Origin: Paenisporosarcina sp. FSL H8-0542
GTDB taxonomy: Bacteria; Bacillota; Bacilli; Bacillales_A; Planococcaceae
Assembly: GCF_038632915.1 (NCBI RefSeq)
Contig: NZ_CP152050.1
Coordinates: forward strand, 2,945,001 to 3,009,000
Length of the DNA: 64,000 bases
Direction of reading: 5' to 3'
Shown here: positions 8,290 to 53,023 of the stretch, one piece after another
Layout of the letters: the number at the start of each line of letters is the position of its first letter
Position numbering within the stretch: the first letter of the stretch is position 1
The notes under the pieces: generated by a model
Told to the model about the DNA's origin: nothing
Seen by the model: only the letters and a program-made list of their open reading frames with translations
Database searches by the model: none
Program-made: the position numbers and the translations under genes

Positions 8290-8475
8290 TCAAAACGAGG
8301 GAATCTGCTCCCTTTCCGCGGACGAACTTCCTTGCCTCCTCGGGCCAACAGGATGTTGGTCACAAAGGCGTTGCCACACGAGGTGGCGTTCTTAGCCTTC
8401 GTTCCTTTGTCTTCGCTGTAGGGTCTTGGCAGTCCGTTTTCCCGCAGGAGCACAAGCTTGTCGCAGATTCCTTTA
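8290..8475. repeat. Degenerate hairpin-repeat unit between acyl-CoA dehydrogenase genes
   Basis: This spacer holds a diverged member of the hairpin family also found at 29.3 and 40.7 kb. CCAACA-GGA-TGTTGG at 8345-8359 corresponds to CCCACA-GGA-TGTGGG in the other two, and AAGGCGTTGCCACACGAGGTGGCGTT follows as a second hairpin (GCCAC/GTGGC). Its G+C content is higher than that of the flanking genes' ends. It interrupts an otherwise tightly packed operon, so it would be part of the transcript. Confidence 0.65.
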
Positions 8476-24981: not shown

Positions 24982-25065
24982 GGTTGGTTGAATTTAGGCT
25001 TTTGCTAAAATGAGCACGAGCTGATTCACACCATTCCTATCCTCGTAGGGTTGCGGGTGTTGCGC

Positions 25066-25240
25066 ACGTAGGCAGGTCTCCTGGCTTGTGATCAGTGGTT
25101 GGCGCGTCTTCCCAAAGCTAAGTTTGCTTCAGTGACTTGATGCGCTTCCTCTCACATACAGTGGCGGGACCGCGTCGGATTTGAACCGACTTCCCTTTTA
25201 ACTCTGCGATTGAAGCAGAGCACCTTCGTGTTGGGGCTAT
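25066..25240 (-). promoter_or_regulatory. Cobalamin riboswitch
   Basis: The minus strand holds the B12-box region GCCACTGTATGTGAGAGG (complement of 25147-25164), the preceding GGTTCAAATCCGACGCGG-type arm, the upstream ACACGAAGGTGCTCTGC arm and the closing AGGAGACCTGCCTACGTG. Together these are the conserved core of the adenosylcobalamin-type aptamer. It lies about 160 bases before btuF and presumably represses all 13 genes down to cblS when cobalamin is plentiful. Confidence 0.93.
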
Positions 25241-25322
25241 GTAATTCATTTTTCATTATACAGGATTTCTGATGGGTGTCGAGAAGGTTTTTGTGGGTGA
25301 CTCGGATTGCGTGAAATTGAAG

Positions 25323-27660: not shown

Positions 27661-28025
27661 TTTACGCTTTTCTATGTCTAGCTTCAAGCGCCAGGCCGCA
27701 CCTAAGCTTCAGTTCCTCAGGCGAAAGTGAACTTTCGCATCGAACCTTCCAGCGCCGGCGTCGACCTAAAACGGCGCTTTACGCTTTTCTATGTCTAGCT
27801 TCAAGCGCCAGGCCGCACCTAAGCTTCAGTTCCTCAGCGAAAGTGAACTTTCGCATCGGACCTTCCTGCGCCGGCGTCGACCTAAAACGGCGCTTTACGC
27901 TTTTCTATGTCTAGCTTCAAGCGCCAGGCCGCACCTAAGCTTCAGTTCCTCAGGCGAAAGTGAACTTTCGCATCGGACCTTCCAGCACCGGCGTCGACCT
28001 AAAACGGCGCTTTACGCTTTTCTAT
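27661..28025. repeat. Three tandem hairpin-repeat units of 116-117 bp
   Basis: Units begin with TTTACGCTTTTCTATGTCTA at 27661, 27778 and 27894, with a partial fourth from 28011. Each has an outer stem AAGCGCC/GGCGCTT and an inner perfect hairpin GCGAAAGT-GA-ACTTTCGC. Copies differ at only a few bases, so this is a recent tandem expansion. It fills the gap between ywiB and the diguanylate cyclase promoter. Open frames running through it are repeat artefacts. Confidence 0.92.
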
Positions 28026-28170: not shown

Positions 28171-29262
28171 ATGCTTTTCGAATTACTTATTAACTTTTGT
28201 ATTTTATTCACTTTCGCGGTTTTGTCCTATTGGCCCTTCCAAGATGTTGTGCGATCGAATTTCCCTTTCCCGAAAACACATCCTTATATCATTGGAATTA
28301 TTGCTGGATTGGCTGGTTTTATCTTAATGGAATCCGCTGTCAATCTGTCTGATTTGATTATACTTGATGCAAGACACGTAGTAATTGTGATTTCTGGAAT
28401 TTTTGGCGGACCGATTGCTCCTATCATCAGCGGACTGATTATTGGTGTGACACGGATGTTTATCCTGGAGGAATTCACTACGACTGGAATTCTTGCAGGA
28501 TTGAACGTTATCCTCATGGGAATTGTGATTGGGGCGTTCAGTTTTAAATATAGGATGACATTTAGAAATGCTCATCTTTATTTTTATTATGCAACTGCTC
28601 AAACTGCTCTTTTAATCGTCTATATCATGTATCCAGCATTGAATAACGTTCACGAAGTCCTGTACTATATCATTTATTCCGCCTTTTCATTCTTTACTGT
28701 ACTGTTCATTTTAATCGAATTAAACGAGCATTTTAAGAAAATCCGTCATACTGAATTATTATCAGAGACCGATTATCTGACTGGTCTTTATAATAATCGC
28801 AAATTCCATCAGCTGACACATTCTTACATTACAGAATCAACCAAGCCTTTCAGCATGATTTCCATCGATATCGATTCTTTCAAAAAAGTGAATGATATTT
28901 ACGGTCATCCAGCGGGCGATGAAATATTAAGGGAACTTGGCAAGCGTCTGAAGGATCTCGTTTCGGAAAATGAGGGATACGTCACACGAAATGGCGGCGA
29001 ACAATTTGCCGTATTGATTGCTAATTCCCCTCCTGCAATGGGACTTTATCTAGGTGAACGCATACGCTCCTGTGTGGCAAGCACCCCATTCCTCGTTTCA
29101 GATAACCTGGAAGTCTCAATTACGGTATCCGTGGGAGTCAGTTCCTATCCGGATAATGGCTCAACGATTCAGGAACTTTATAGTGCTGCTGATTCAGCTA
29201 TGTATGAGGCGAAAGCGAACGGACGTAATCGCGTCATTCATTTCACAAATAAAAAAGCGTGA
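28171..29262 (+). CDS. Membrane diguanylate cyclase (5TMR-LYT + GGDEF)
   Basis: 363 residues. The first ~190 form five to six membrane helices of the 5TM-LYT sensor type (FPKTHPYIIGIIAGLAGF, ISGIFGGPIAPIISGLIIG). The C-terminal ~165 are a GGDEF domain: TDYLTGLYNNRKF, ISIDIDSFKKVND, GHPAGDEIL and signature NGGEQF. The signature is GGEQF, with Gln instead of Glu at the fourth position; the metal-binding Asp (DIDSFK) and third-position Glu are present, so activity is likely but unproven. No RxxD inhibitory site seen five residues upstream of the signature. Ribosome site ACGGAGGAAAAGTC. Confidence 0.92.
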   Translation: MLFELLINFCILFTFAVLSYWPFQDVVRSNFPFPKTHPYIIGIIAGLAGFILMESAVNLSDLIILDARHVVIVISGIFGGPIAPIISGLIIGVTRMFILEEFTTTGILAGLNVILMGIVIGAFSFKYRMTFRNAHLYFYYATAQTALLIVYIMYPALNNVHEVLYYIIYSAFSFFTVLFILIELNEHFKKIRHTELLSETDYLTGLYNNRKFHQLTHSYITESTKPFSMISIDIDSFKKVNDIYGHPAGDEILRELGKRLKDLVSENEGYVTRNGGEQFAVLIANSPPAMGLYLGERIRSCVASTPFLVSDNLEVSITVSVGVSSYPDNGSTIQELYSAADSAMYEAKANGRNRVIHFTNKKA

Positions 29263-29297
29263 TGCTTCTCAGAAATGAGAGCATCACGCTTTTATTA
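29257..29297 (+). terminator. Terminator of the GGDEF gene
   Basis: GCGTGATGC...GCATCACGC stem with an imperfect inner extension, followed by TTTTATT; it overlaps the stop codon. Confidence 0.85.
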
Positions 29298-29470
29298 TTG
29301 TCTAGCTCCAAGCGCCAGGTCGCACCTCCGCTTAGGCCCACAGGATGTGGGTCATGAAGGCGCTCCGACACGAGGCTAGGAACTTAGCCTCCCGGTGTGC
29401 CTGCAGTTACTTGGCACACAGTAAACTTTGCTTCCAACTTCGGAGTCGAGCTAGAGTGGCGCTTTACGCA
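29298..29470. repeat. Hairpin-repeat unit, long variant
   Basis: One unit with ends GTCTAGCTCCAAGCGCC and AGAGTGGCGCTTTACGC (outer stem AAGCGCC/GGCGCTT) and three internal hairpins: CCCACA-GGA-TGTGGG (29337-29351), GAGGCTA...TAGCCTC and GTGTGCC...GGCACAC. It fills the convergent space between the GGDEF gene and speB. Confidence 0.85.
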
Positions 29471-29471
29471 T

Positions 29472-30344
29472 TTATTTTACCCAGCCTAAAAGCATTTCAC
29501 GGATGAGTTTGCTTGCAGTGTTTGCAGTTTGTTCAGATGAATCGTAAATTGGCGCTACTTCCACTAAGTCGAAGCCAACGACGTTTACGTCTGAACCTGC
29601 AATCGCATGGATAGACGCCAGTAATTCACGAGATGTAATACCTCCGCAGTCGACTGTTCCAGTACCTGGTGCGTGTGCAGGATCAAGTACATCAATGTCG
29701 ATTGTTACGTATACTGGACGCCCTGCCAATGTTGGCAACACTTCTTTTAACGGCTCCAGCACTTCAAATTTTGAAATGTGCATGCCGTTTTCTTTTGCCC
29801 AGACAAATTCTTCTTTCATGCCTGAACGAATACCGAATGAGTAAACATTTTTTGGACCGATGTGATCGGCGATTTTACGAATTGGTGTGGAGTGTGAAAG
29901 TGCTTCTCCTTCGTAAGATTCACGTAAATCAGTATGTGCGTCCATGTGAATGATTGCCAAATCCGGATACTTTGCAGCGACAGCTTTCATAACTGGCCAA
30001 GACACTAAGTGCTCGCCACCCATTCCGACTGGAACTTTTCCGTCAGCTAACAATTTTGTCACGAACGTTTCGATTTCGTCCAAACTTTTTTGCGGGTTCC
30101 CGAAAGGTAACGGAATATCCCCTGCATCGAAGTAATTTACTTCGTCAAGGTCACGATCCAAATACGGACTGTATTCTTCAAGGCCGATTGACACTTCACG
30201 AATACGTTGTGGACCGAATCGTGAACCTGGACGGTAGGAAACTGTCCAGTCCATCGGCATGCCGTAAATGACAGCTTGTGATTCGTCGTAATTTGGATGA
30301 CTTTTAATAAACACATTGCCTGAATAGGCTTCATCAAATCTCAT
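29472..30344 (-). CDS. speB: Agmatinase
   Basis: Ureohydrolase converting agmatine to putrescine plus urea. 290 residues; manganese ligands are visible in MGGEHL, HMDAHTDL and TIDIDVLDPAHAPG. Three bases separate it from speE, so putrescine and spermidine formation are co-expressed, as in B. subtilis. Confidence 0.96.
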   Translation of the reverse strand: MRFDEAYSGNVFIKSHPNYDESQAVIYGMPMDWTVSYRPGSRFGPQRIREVSIGLEEYSPYLDRDLDEVNYFDAGDIPLPFGNPQKSLDEIETFVTKLLADGKVPVGMGGEHLVSWPVMKAVAAKYPDLAIIHMDAHTDLRESYEGEALSHSTPIRKIADHIGPKNVYSFGIRSGMKEEFVWAKENGMHISKFEVLEPLKEVLPTLAGRPVYVTIDIDVLDPAHAPGTGTVDCGGITSRELLASIHAIAGSDVNVVGFDLVEVAPIYDSSEQTANTASKLIREMLLGWVK

Positions 30345-36102: not shown

Positions 36103-37407
36103 CTATGCTTGTCCGTAAAGCAACTCTAAAATTTTCTTCTTCACGGCTTTTTTCTTTGTATCTTCTGTCAGTAAATCTTCGGGGAAATACAATTTATGAT
36201 CCGTTCTTCGTTTGCCTGAAATGGCTTCAACGATTTCAGAAGACCTCGATAGCTCACGTAGTTCGTTGTTTGGCATCAATAAATGAATCGGCACACGTTC
36301 GCCCTCCTCACCTGGTCGATAAAAATCATATGGCAAGTCTGATGACGAATCGAATACCAAATAGTAAGCAGGGCTGATGCCCGCTTTATTAAACAATTTC
36401 TCGAGTTCAGCCAGTTTCCTGTAATCCTTTGCCGGGTCAAATTCAATGTATTGGAATAAACGACGATTCACAAAGCGGTCGCATAGATCAGCGAGAATGT
36501 CATCTTCTTCGTGCACCCATTCCTGGAAGTACGTCATAACAATGCCTTCGTCGAGTGCAATGTAATCAGTCAATGAAAATGTTTGATCAAAGAACGTCTT
36601 GAAATGACGCGGTTCATACGCAAAAGTGTAACCACTCTCACTCAGTTCTTTGGCACGGTGAAGTGCTTTCGTTAGAATTACTTCCGCACTGCGGGACACC
36701 GGATGGAAATACACTTGCCAGTACATTTGGTAGCGACTCATGATGTAATCTTCTACCGCATGCATGCCGCTTTGTTTAATGACGACTTGATCTTCGCGCG
36801 GGCGCATGACACGTAAAATACGCTCCATATCAAAATGCCCGTAACTTACGCCTGTAAAATACGCATCACGTTGTAAATAATCCATGCGATCTGCATCGAT
36901 CTGGCTTGAAATTAAACTTACCGCTTGTTTATTGCCGTATGTTTTGGCAATGACATCGGACACATGTTGGGGAAATTCCGGAGCCACACGTTTTAGTATT
37001 TCATTTACTTCAGTGTCTCCAAGTAGAATAGCCTGCGTGAATTTCTCATGGTCCAGATCAAACACATGTTCAAACGCATGTGAAAATGGACCATGACCGA
37101 GATCATGAAGAAGTGCTGCACAAAGAACCACCAGTCTCTCAGATTCATCCCATTCAGGTCGGCCTGTAAATATATCGTCAATGATGCGTCTTACAACCTC
37201 GTAAACGCCCAGTGAGTGGTTGAAGCGGCTATGTTCAGCCCCGTGGAAAACGAGATACGTTGTGCCGAGTTGTTTGATACGTCGCAATCTCTGAAATTCT
37301 CTCGCGCCAATCAAATCCCAAATCACTTGATCGCGGACATGTATGTAGCGGTGTACCGGGTCTTTAAATACTTTTTCTTCAGCCAACTTTTGCGTTGCAT
37401 AACTCAC
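36103..37407 (-). CDS. ywfO: HD-domain phosphohydrolase YwfO
   Basis: Metal-dependent HD hydrolase resembling dGTP triphosphohydrolases. Motifs: EEKVFKDPVHRYIHV, RIKQLGTTYLVFHGAEHSRFNHSLG, and ALLHDLGHGPFSHAFEHVF with the HD pair, then DADRMDYLQRDAY. Enterococcal homologues hydrolyse several dNTPs. GTG at 37405-37407 is chosen, behind AGAGGTGTCC; ATG six codons upstream would have no ribosome site. 434 residues. Confidence 0.92.
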   Translation of the reverse strand: MSYATQKLAEEKVFKDPVHRYIHVRDQVIWDLIGAREFQRLRRIKQLGTTYLVFHGAEHSRFNHSLGVYEVVRRIIDDIFTGRPEWDESERLVVLCAALLHDLGHGPFSHAFEHVFDLDHEKFTQAILLGDTEVNEILKRVAPEFPQHVSDVIAKTYGNKQAVSLISSQIDADRMDYLQRDAYFTGVSYGHFDMERILRVMRPREDQVVIKQSGMHAVEDYIMSRYQMYWQVYFHPVSRSAEVILTKALHRAKELSESGYTFAYEPRHFKTFFDQTFSLTDYIALDEGIVMTYFQEWVHEEDDILADLCDRFVNRRLFQYIEFDPAKDYRKLAELEKLFNKAGISPAYYLVFDSSSDLPYDFYRPGEEGERVPIHLLMPNNELRELSRSSEIVEAISGKRRTDHKLYFPEDLLTEDTKKKAVKKKILELLYGQA

Positions 37408-37428
37408 ATGGACACCTCTTCTCATTAG

Positions 37429-37540
37429 AAAAGCGAAAAGCGCAACTCTAGCTCGACGCCGGCGCTGGAAGAATGAAAGGCGAATTTTTCGCCTTTCCGC
37501 CCCCTATAGGGGCCAGCGAGCTGGCGCATATAGCTAGACA
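37429..37540. repeat. Hairpin-repeat unit, reverse orientation
   Basis: Read on the minus strand it starts GTCTAGCTATATGCGCC and ends AGAGTTGCGCTTTTCGC. Second stem AGCTCG/CGAGCT, inner hairpins CCCCTATAGGGG and AAAGGCGAA-AAA-TTCGCCTTT. Only copy inverted relative to the others; it lies upstream of ywfO. Confidence 0.85.
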
Positions 37541-40732: not shown

Positions 40733-41066
40733 TGGTGTCTAGCTGCGCAGGGTAGGCATCACCTAAGCTTAGGCCCACAGGATGTGGGTCATGAAGGCGT
40801 TCCGACACGATGTCGGGATTTTAGCCTTCCTTCCATTTCTCATGCGAATGCAGGCATTCGAATCGGTTGCTCCTGCGGTTACTCGTCGCAAAGAAAATCT
40901 TCTTTCCAGCGCCGGTGTAGGTCTTTCACACCCTGCTCCGCTTTTCTTGTTGTCTAGCTACAAGCGCCAGCCTGCACCTAAGCTTCAGTCTCTCTTGCGA
41001 AAGCGGGCTTTCGCATCGAGCCTTCCAGCGCCGGAGTCAGGCTAGATTGGCGCTTTCCGCTTTTCC
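40733..41066. repeat. Two adjacent hairpin-repeat units (long and short type)
   Basis: The first unit (about 40733-40945) has outer stem GCAGGGT/ACCCTGC and internal hairpins CCCACA-GGA-TGTGGG (40774-40788), CCGACA-CGA-TGTCGG and CGAATGC-AG-GCATTCG, plus the TTGCTCCTGCGGTTACTCGT word shared with 12.0 kb. The second (about 40946-41066) is of the 117-bp type: AAGCGCC/GGCGCTT, AGCCTG/CAGGCT and GCGAAAGC-GG-GCTTTCGC. They fill the divergent pta/hemQ region. Confidence 0.88.
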
Positions 41067-41187
41067 CTTCATAATAACACGAATTTGTCATATCTCATCA
41101 TGTGTGAATGGTGAGAATATAGGTTTCTTAAAGGCTTTATGCTAAACTTAACTTGAATATTTAATTAGATGAAGGAGTGTCCCATAC

Positions 41188-52499: not shown

Positions 52500-52941
52500 A
52501 AATTTTAGACGATCCTTATTCTTTCACGATTGTCTTCGTTCTTCCACCGTCGGAGTCGGGTTAGAGTGGCGTTTTCCACTTTTCCTACTGTCTAGTTCCA
52601 AACGCCAGCCCGCACCTACGCTTCAGAAACTCAATCGAAAACAAGTTTTCGTTTCGTTTCTTCCACCGTCAGAGTCGGGTTAGAGTGGCGTTTTCCACTT
52701 TTCTTACTGTCTAGTTCCAAACGCCAGCCCGCACCTCCGCTTCAGAAACTCAATCGAAAACAAGTTTTCGTTTCGTTTCTTCCACCGTCGGAGTCGGGCT
52801 AGAGTGACGTTTTCCACTTTTCCTACTGTCTAGTTCCAAACGCCAGCCCGCACCTCCGCTTCAGAAACTCAATCGAAAACAAGTTTTCGTTTCGTTTCTT
52901 CCACCGTCGGAGTCGGGCTAGAGTGGCGTTTTCCACTTTTC
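52500..52941. repeat. Tandem hairpin-repeat array, ~119-bp units
   Basis: Three full units (starting TGTCTAGTTCCAAACGCC near 52589, 52708 and 52827) preceded by a partial one. Stems: outer AAACGCC/GGCGTTT, second AGCCCG/CGGGCT, inner CGAAAAC-AA-GTTTTCG. Same architecture as the 27.7-kb array but with different paired bases. Fills the divergent space before yojF. Confidence 0.92.
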
Positions 52942-53023
52942 CATGAGCATGCTAATCGCATTAATCAGCAAAATTCACTATACTTATGTCTAGAAGTTTT
53001 GTTGTTAAGAGGGGGATAAAAAA

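Follow-up and report, generated by a model that had tools for sequence, protein, structure and literature searches.

A widespread, mobile-looking DNA hairpin family of Bacilli with stems kept by compensatory change

Does a hairpin whose two strands change in step mark an RNA, or can it also mark a mobile piece of DNA? The question was raised by positions 27661-28025 of the window, the whole stretch of 64,000 nucleotides analyzed from Paenisporosarcina sp. FSL H8-0542. The initial annotation had described this locus as a tandem hairpin repeat with compensatory stem change between sites, and had read it as either a structured RNA or a cruciform mobile, REP-like element. We use E1 as a working name for the ∼116-nt hairpin element of this 27.6 kb array. 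As set out below, E1 is a real, widespread, and mobile-looking DNA hairpin family whose structure is kept by compensatory change.

The array, its fold, and its distribution

We denote by G000 the genome that carries the window (one contig, 3,629,232 bases). The best named matches to a protein of the window were in Paenisporosarcina sp. HGH0030 (L040; 99%), used here as the same-species genome G011, and then in P. quisquiliarum (L041; 87%). The tandem repeat was confirmed as an array at 27676-28024, made up of three short-form E1 units of 115-116 nt on the plus strand, arranged head-to-tail with spacings of 117 and 116: 27676-27791 (120.8 bits), 27793-27907 (114 bits), and 27909-28024, which is also a covariance model match. 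Immediately left of the first unit, 27661-27675 (+) is an E1-like 3′ end, TTTACGCTTTTCTAT, and the identical string closes every unit. The annotation had named duplicates with identical stems as the pattern that would speak against its reading. Within the array the units are near-identical copies of one another, so the covariation lies between sites.

All of the stems that the annotation listed at 29.3, 37.4, 40.7, 41.0, and 52.6 kb were found. At 29.3 kb, a long form (29300-29476, +) follows directly on a terminator-like hairpin with a T-run (29253-29293, no strand assigned), and its 3′ end touches the stop codon of the convergent gene at 29472-30344 (-). The short form at 37426-37539 (-) has its 3′ end adjoining the region where ORF 36103-37425, on the same strand, starts. 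A second long form, with the outer stem GCAGGGT/ACCCTGC, occupies 40737-40949 (+; ends placed by eye) and is followed after 2 nt, in the same orientation, by a short form at 40952-41067 (+; 128.2 bits). At 52.6 kb, a truncated E1 consisting of the 3′ part alone (52540-52589, +) precedes three short-form units that match the covariance model (52590-52705, 52709-52824, and 52828-52943, all +). The ends of E1 are nearly constant, GTCTAGCT ... CGCTTTTCT, and the unpaired segments are largely constant; the window contains GTCTAGCT 7 times, where shuffling predicts 0.9.

RNAalifold, applied to 9 short copies aligned by plain MAFFT, predicted one long hairpin of 34 pairs; for 16 of these, one or more sequences had both partners changed and the pairing retained. 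Pairing starts 5 nt into the element with 3 pairs, which are followed by 3-nt gaps and then by 7 pairs. The outermost helix pairs AG[CT], close to the 5′ end, with [GA]CT, close to the 3′ end; it covaries and was absent from the annotation's list. The covariance model and genome-wide search that the annotation had proposed as a check were then available as model R1, built from this alignment and fold. R1 gave 73 matches in G000 at E≤1, 51 of them below 2e-6, the weakest being short or partial; it leaves the 40.7 kb long form unscored. In an alignment of 112 matches (96 distinct rows), 33 of the 34 pairs showed two-sided change and 91.9% of cells were paired, compared to 69.9% after shuffling, with none of 500 shuffles reaching the observed values; when the partner was slid by 1-3 columns, pairing fell to 31-49%. 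Among 85 matches from other genera and families, 94.7% of cells were paired (66.4% shuffled; 0/500 shuffles as high) and 29 of 30 pairs showed two-sided change, a count equaled by 3 of 500 shuffles. Both alignments were fitted to models and so lean towards the structure. RNAalifold on a structure-free alignment of 22 copies left the fold plan unchanged. C-G/G-C flips are frequent in the stems. Thus, the compensatory change that the annotation saw between sites was borne out: the helices of E1 are stacked, and the stem sequence is free provided that both sides match.

The family is not confined to this genome. R1 found matches in 60 of 121 family genomes (G000 included), spread over 14 of 19 genera. 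Of 200 genomes from the order scanned with a broader model, R2, 159 had matches, and the listed ones all fell within the same family. At class level R2 matched 54 of 348 genomes, and 29 of these 54 lie outside the family. Since these family, order, and class scans score 10-30 candidates per genome, copy numbers from them are lower bounds. E1 was also seen inside the 16S-23S rRNA spacers of two genomes (L161:1501-1617 and L165:1501-1614). By blastn, which detects DNA similarity and would let diverged copies escape, two E1 copies had no match among 72,556 plasmid records and one copy had none among 50,697 phage records.

Position beside genes and turnover between genomes

For gene context we took the best 51 of the 73 R1 matches, merged to 39 sites. 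The downstream gene is encoded opposite to E1 at 20 of the 38 sites counted for stop distance (962497, with no downstream ORF called, is omitted), and in 17 of the 20 cases its stop codon lies no more than 6 nt from the 3′ end of E1; a slide null gave a mean of 3.5 and a maximum of 10 such sites in 20,000 runs. By the same measure, the 5′ end was close to the stop of a same-strand gene at 1 of 16 sites. The polarity recurred in other genera, where 18 of 26 3′ ends and 2 of 33 5′ ends were within 8 nt of a stop; the 6-nt and 8-nt limits were set once the distances were known, and the gene ends are those of called ORFs. The stop codon is the host gene's own: when 16 of the 17 abutting sites (29.3 kb was excluded) were compared with relatives, the C-terminal length was equal in 60 of the 64 comparisons. 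The four exceptions were two longer open frames and two that ended one or two residues earlier.

The left flank has a signature of its own. A strong terminator-like hairpin with a T-run stood there at 8 of 38 sites (2697793 is omitted), compared to 15 of 3000 random positions, a control that is generous to the signal because E1 lies where terminators are common. An E1-like 3′ end was present at 6 of the 38, and one or the other at 13. Neighboring copies had the same orientation in all 13 cases in G000 and all 36 in other genera. When the gene downstream shares the strand of E1, the element can stop just short of the ribosome-binding region (63783 and 1161526). At G000:C1:1161526 it lies between a leader terminator and the ribosome-binding site, and the relatives' leader at this site resembles a T-box.

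E1 does not look like an ordinary intrinsic terminator. A scan of both strands at 27.5-29.6 kb called none in E1, although its loop sizes were restricted to 3-8 and the clear hairpin at 29253-29293 escaped it as well. A sub-threshold match to mir-553 on that hairpin (29.25-29.3 kb) was taken as chance.

Comparison of close genomes showed that E1 copies differ as those of a mobile element would, in presence, in unit number, and by replacement at the same site. The 27.6 kb array has 3 units in G000, 2 in G011, and none in L041; the 52.6 kb array has 3 units in G000 versus 5 full units in G011; and L041 is without E1 at 29.3 and 37.4 kb. One unit was gained or lost between TTTCCGCTTTTC repeats. 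Recombination between repeats could account for gain and loss. At 3444201, G000 and G011 are identical up to GTCTAGCT and from CGCTTTTCT on, bar two bases, and the interior is a long Bacillaceae-1 form (described below) in one genome and a short form with different stems in the other. At 1501946 and, less strongly, at 852928, the interior likewise differs between near-identical flanks of the same-species genomes. Of 18 sites chosen as gene-abutting, and hence not a random sample of the 39, 17 had E1 in both G000 and G011; two pairs of elements were 76-77% identical and the rest 91-100%. This presence comparison was used for G011 alone, as the crude 5′-end search misses copies such as that of G072 at 68140.

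Between strains at 1501946, two-sided change affected only 3 pairs and one-sided change 8, and 6 pairs of the G000 copy are broken, so that change there was not mainly compensatory. At three sites compared with G030, 8, 9, and 13 of 34 pairs had changed on both sides, with 2 one-sided changes each. E1 was absent from G030 and G072 at 1161526 and from G030 at 3613459. More generally, across species an E1 site may hold an E1 with different stems, a free Bacillaceae-1 module, a degenerate copy, a plain terminator-like hairpin (as in G030 and G047 at 2629828, where G000 has E1), or nothing. Several E1-free alleles retain the last ∼10 nt of E1; some are probably losses, marking an old deletion and not a never-filled site. 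MITEs are characterized by a target-site duplication when filled and empty sites are compared. At the E1-free sites at 27.6, 29.3, and 37.4 kb, 1161526, and 3613459, there was no clear target-site duplication, and some of these sites keep the last bases of E1.

Pairing balance and the Bacillaceae-1 module

Structured RNA tolerates G-U pairs and does not tolerate A-C. On the 31 well-defined pairs of the 112-match alignment (A3) we counted 66 G-U and 62 A-C cells, and on the 28 well-defined pairs of the 85-match alignment (A5) 40 and 31; these counts omit three doubtful pairs in A3 and two in A5, an omission made after the all-pair counts were known. Over all modeled pairs, the counts were 89 and 70 in A3 and 90 and 35 in A5, where 50 of the 90 G-U cells come from two poorly kept pairs (82% of cells). 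As a control, the acceptor and T stems of 36 tRNAs gave 27 G-U and 3 A-C, the latter lowered because tRNAs forming fewer than 6 of the 7 acceptor pairs were dropped. The share of G-U among standard pairs was 1.9-3.9% for E1 compared to 6.4% for the tRNAs. All of these are counts of cells, not of events, in copies that are related. Pairing in E1 is thus near-strictly Watson-Crick: G-U and A-C are about equally rare among the well-defined pairs, unlike in tRNA, and this weakens the RNA half of the annotation's reading. Without being settled, the matter reads as that of a palindrome kept at the DNA level. An RNA gene as the first explanation is disfavored by these near strand-symmetric mismatches, with the all-pair counts less clear.

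Bacillaceae-1 appears in a table of candidate RNAs (PMC2864571). Its Rfam model, RF01690, gave 30 matches in G000, 28 over the cut-off. Ten of the 30 lie inside an E1 match and 4 within 60 nt of one, all 14 antisense to E1; the other 16 are away from any scored E1, including one at 8345-8411 in another palindrome. The match at 2985774 lies inside the 40.7 kb element that R1 passes over. E1 as a whole is not an RF01690 member: only the inner module of the long forms matches (29337-29403 and 40774-40840, both on the minus strand), and the 27.6 kb units had no Rfam match even at E≤1, RF01690 included. At Rfam cut-offs, E1 had no match beyond this module in the window and at 14 further loci. In long forms of ∼177 nt, the module is placed after the CTT that precedes the apex.

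The module also occurs apart from E1. At a gene stop codon where G000 (1074750) has E1, it was found in L346 (G061; 47.0 bits) and L319 (G072; 68.4 bits), and at a stop where G000 (2324681) has E1, in L298 (G030; 57.8 bits) and L329 (G047; 39.6 bits). In long E1 forms, the Bacillaceae-1 'RNA' is an apex module that can be exchanged. A different palindromic element at 8300-8471 of the window, with ends GGAATCTGC ... GCAGATTCC, carries the same module (8345-8411, -), which therefore has at least two host elements. A third module, GCTCCTGCGGTTACTCGTCGCAAAG, is present at 40869-40893 (+) and forms tandem runs inside other elements. One such run lies in a chimeric element of G011 at C1:1769463 (L202), where the assembly has Ns; two copies are found at 2724949 in G000 and none there in G011. 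A run similar to the GCTCCTGCGGTTACTCGTCGCAAAG tandem run was seen in G030 at the site of G000:C1:2314061. Elsewhere in the window, a cobalamin riboswitch (RF00174, 115 bits) was detected at 25054-25242 (-).

E1 could instead be a functional RNA element, either a 3′-UTR hairpin that protects or ends the mRNA of the gene behind whose stop codon it lies, or a 5′-leader element at sites ahead of a ribosome-binding site, spread by duplication and kept for its RNA structure. Its exact location after stop codons, the position at 1161526 between leader terminator and ribosome-binding region, the conserved unpaired bases, the Rfam assignment of the Bacillaceae-1 module as RNA, the copies in rRNA spacers, and the excess of G-U in the all-pair count of A5 are consistent with such a function. 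Set against these are the near equality of G-U and A-C on well-defined pairs, the presence, absence, and swapping of elements at the same gene in close genomes, and the lack of a terminator call in E1 on either strand at 27.5-29.6 kb, within the limits of the scan given above. We consider the functional-RNA reading unlikely, though it is the strongest of the competing accounts. For the DNA reading, the broader caution is that strong covariation alone is no proof of RNA, and that the balance of G-U and A-C needs checking.

A proposed mobile hairpin and its closest known kinds

From the placement, turnover, and pairing observed in these genomes we infer transposition as the cause of the turnover, together with shape recognition, a target rule, and an enzyme. 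We give a probability of about 0.6 to the proposal that E1 is a mobile palindromic DNA element, non-coding and non-autonomous, recognized by shape, moved in trans, and targeted to a T-rich stretch 3′ of a hairpin. Recognition would depend on the shape of a folded single strand or cruciform together with the constant ends and bulges, and would leave the stem sequence free to vary. The enzyme that moves E1 in trans would belong to the host or to an element, and a Y1 transposase is an improbable candidate. The target would be the T-rich stretch 3′ of a hairpin, belonging either to an ordinary terminator or to the 3′ end of another E1. Insertion behind another E1 would build a tandem array of one orientation, and insertion into a terminator shared by convergent genes, which lies right next to the stop of the second gene, would bring the 3′ end of E1 against this stop. 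A single hairpin and T-run target would thus yield one-way arrays, a terminator left of the 5′ end, and a 3′ end at a stop. The target signature was present in only 13 of 38 left flanks, so this rule is not general. Replacement in place may proceed by insertion beside a resident copy followed by loss between repeated ends, or by template switching in the hairpin; such renewal would change both sides of a stem together and could produce the compensatory pattern.

We found no autonomous partner or enzyme for E1 in G000. We also looked for an autonomous copy, in the form of a gene flanked by E1 ends: 38 of 41 matches to the 5′-end pattern overlap R1 matches, and the other 3 lie 3, 6, and 128 nt away, which leaves no such copy.

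The same turnover might have come about without any transposition, if E1 sites were old palindromes that expand and contract by slippage and whose pairing is kept by template switching (quasi-palindrome correction) and ectopic gene conversion. Near-identical tandem units in differing numbers, loss between short repeats, near-strict Watson-Crick pairing with frequent C-G/G-C flips, and the long persistence of sites across species fit this account. Yet unpaired segments and ends that stay constant across a class need selection or a recognizer, the interior at 3444201 was replaced between shared ends of ∼8-9 nt, which is short for homologous recombination, and the polarity at gene ends is left unexplained. 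We rate it somewhat below the functional-RNA reading.

Movement as a REP by a RAYT or IS200-IS605 type Y1 transposase would suit a small, extragenic, high-copy palindrome, and Y1 families occur in 75 of 121 family genomes. However, PF01797 (Y1_Tnp) had 0 matches in G000 and G011, both among the genomes richest in E1, the unit length is 116 nt, and neighboring copies are oriented alike. Because no Y1 transposase was found in the genome that carries the window, this variant is highly improbable. Of the annotation's alternatives, then, the mobile, structure-keeping repeat is the part that held up, through differences in copy number, absences, and swaps, while the REP/RAYT form, like the structured RNA, is disfavored.

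The mobile-element proposal can be carried further, to a tentative form that we hold as a good deal less probable: E1 may be a class-wide, shape-recognized DNA element, such that an enzyme of Bacilli reads the bulges and ends of the folded strand, attaches copies to the T-run that follows a hairpin, whether a terminator or another E1, and replaces residents in place, which would let stem sequences turn over under a fixed shape, with the Bacillaceae-1 'RNA' as its apex module and not an independent RNA gene. If true, a common and, within the literature searched, apparently unnamed repeat of Bacillus relatives would have a single explanation, and an Rfam RNA family would become a module of a mobile DNA hairpin. 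E1 would also offer a natural system with an element apparently recognized by its shape. Our literature search, to which most subscription journals did not belong, found no name for E1, so this is not proof that E1 is undescribed.

Among known systems, the integron attC site is thought to be recognized by its folded shape and conserved bulges and not by its stem sequence, and has the core boxes RYYYAAC and GTTRRRY. E1 lacks the attC core consensus (ends of 32 aligned copies, by eye), and its array units are directly adjacent, with no cassette genes between them. BOX of pneumococcus is a modular interspersed hairpin with exchangeable middle parts; going by this description, E1 differs in having its modules at the apex of one long hairpin. 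EFAR of Enterococcus faecalis, attributed to Venditti et al. 2007, reportedly comprises modular palindromic mini-elements of several sequence types that integrate into stem-loops, with part of the stem kept. By that description, E1 resembles EFAR as a modular palindromic mini-element, whereas its own constant ends, polar position at stop codons, and spread over many families of Bacilli set it apart. Judged by their descriptions, modular hairpin mini-elements such as EFAR, BOX, and bcr1 would be the nearest kind.

Published definitions separate E1 from other classes. REPs are described as 20-40 bp palindromes with a GTAG or CGTC tag (PMC3733652), and E1, with units of ∼116 nt that start with GTCTAGCT, has neither that palindrome nor that tag. 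MITEs are described there as having 15-30 bp terminal inverted repeats, and the E1 ends GTCTAGCT and CGCTTTTCT are not inverted repeats of each other; the same passage names EFAR among the MITEs. The analogy that the annotation drew to bcr1 proved loose. By the title of Okstad et al. 2004, with a table row in PMC2267715 and a passage in PMC3733652, bcr1 is a repeat limited to the B. cereus group; it is like E1 in being interspersed, extragenic, and structured with mobile features, but E1 is distributed across Bacilli and is without long (15-30 bp) terminal inverted repeats. Other rows of the table in PMC2267715 list the E. faecalis stem-loop family Efa-1 (163 bp) and Bhal-1 (74 bp) of B. halodurans, which, going by its description, could be a relative of E1.
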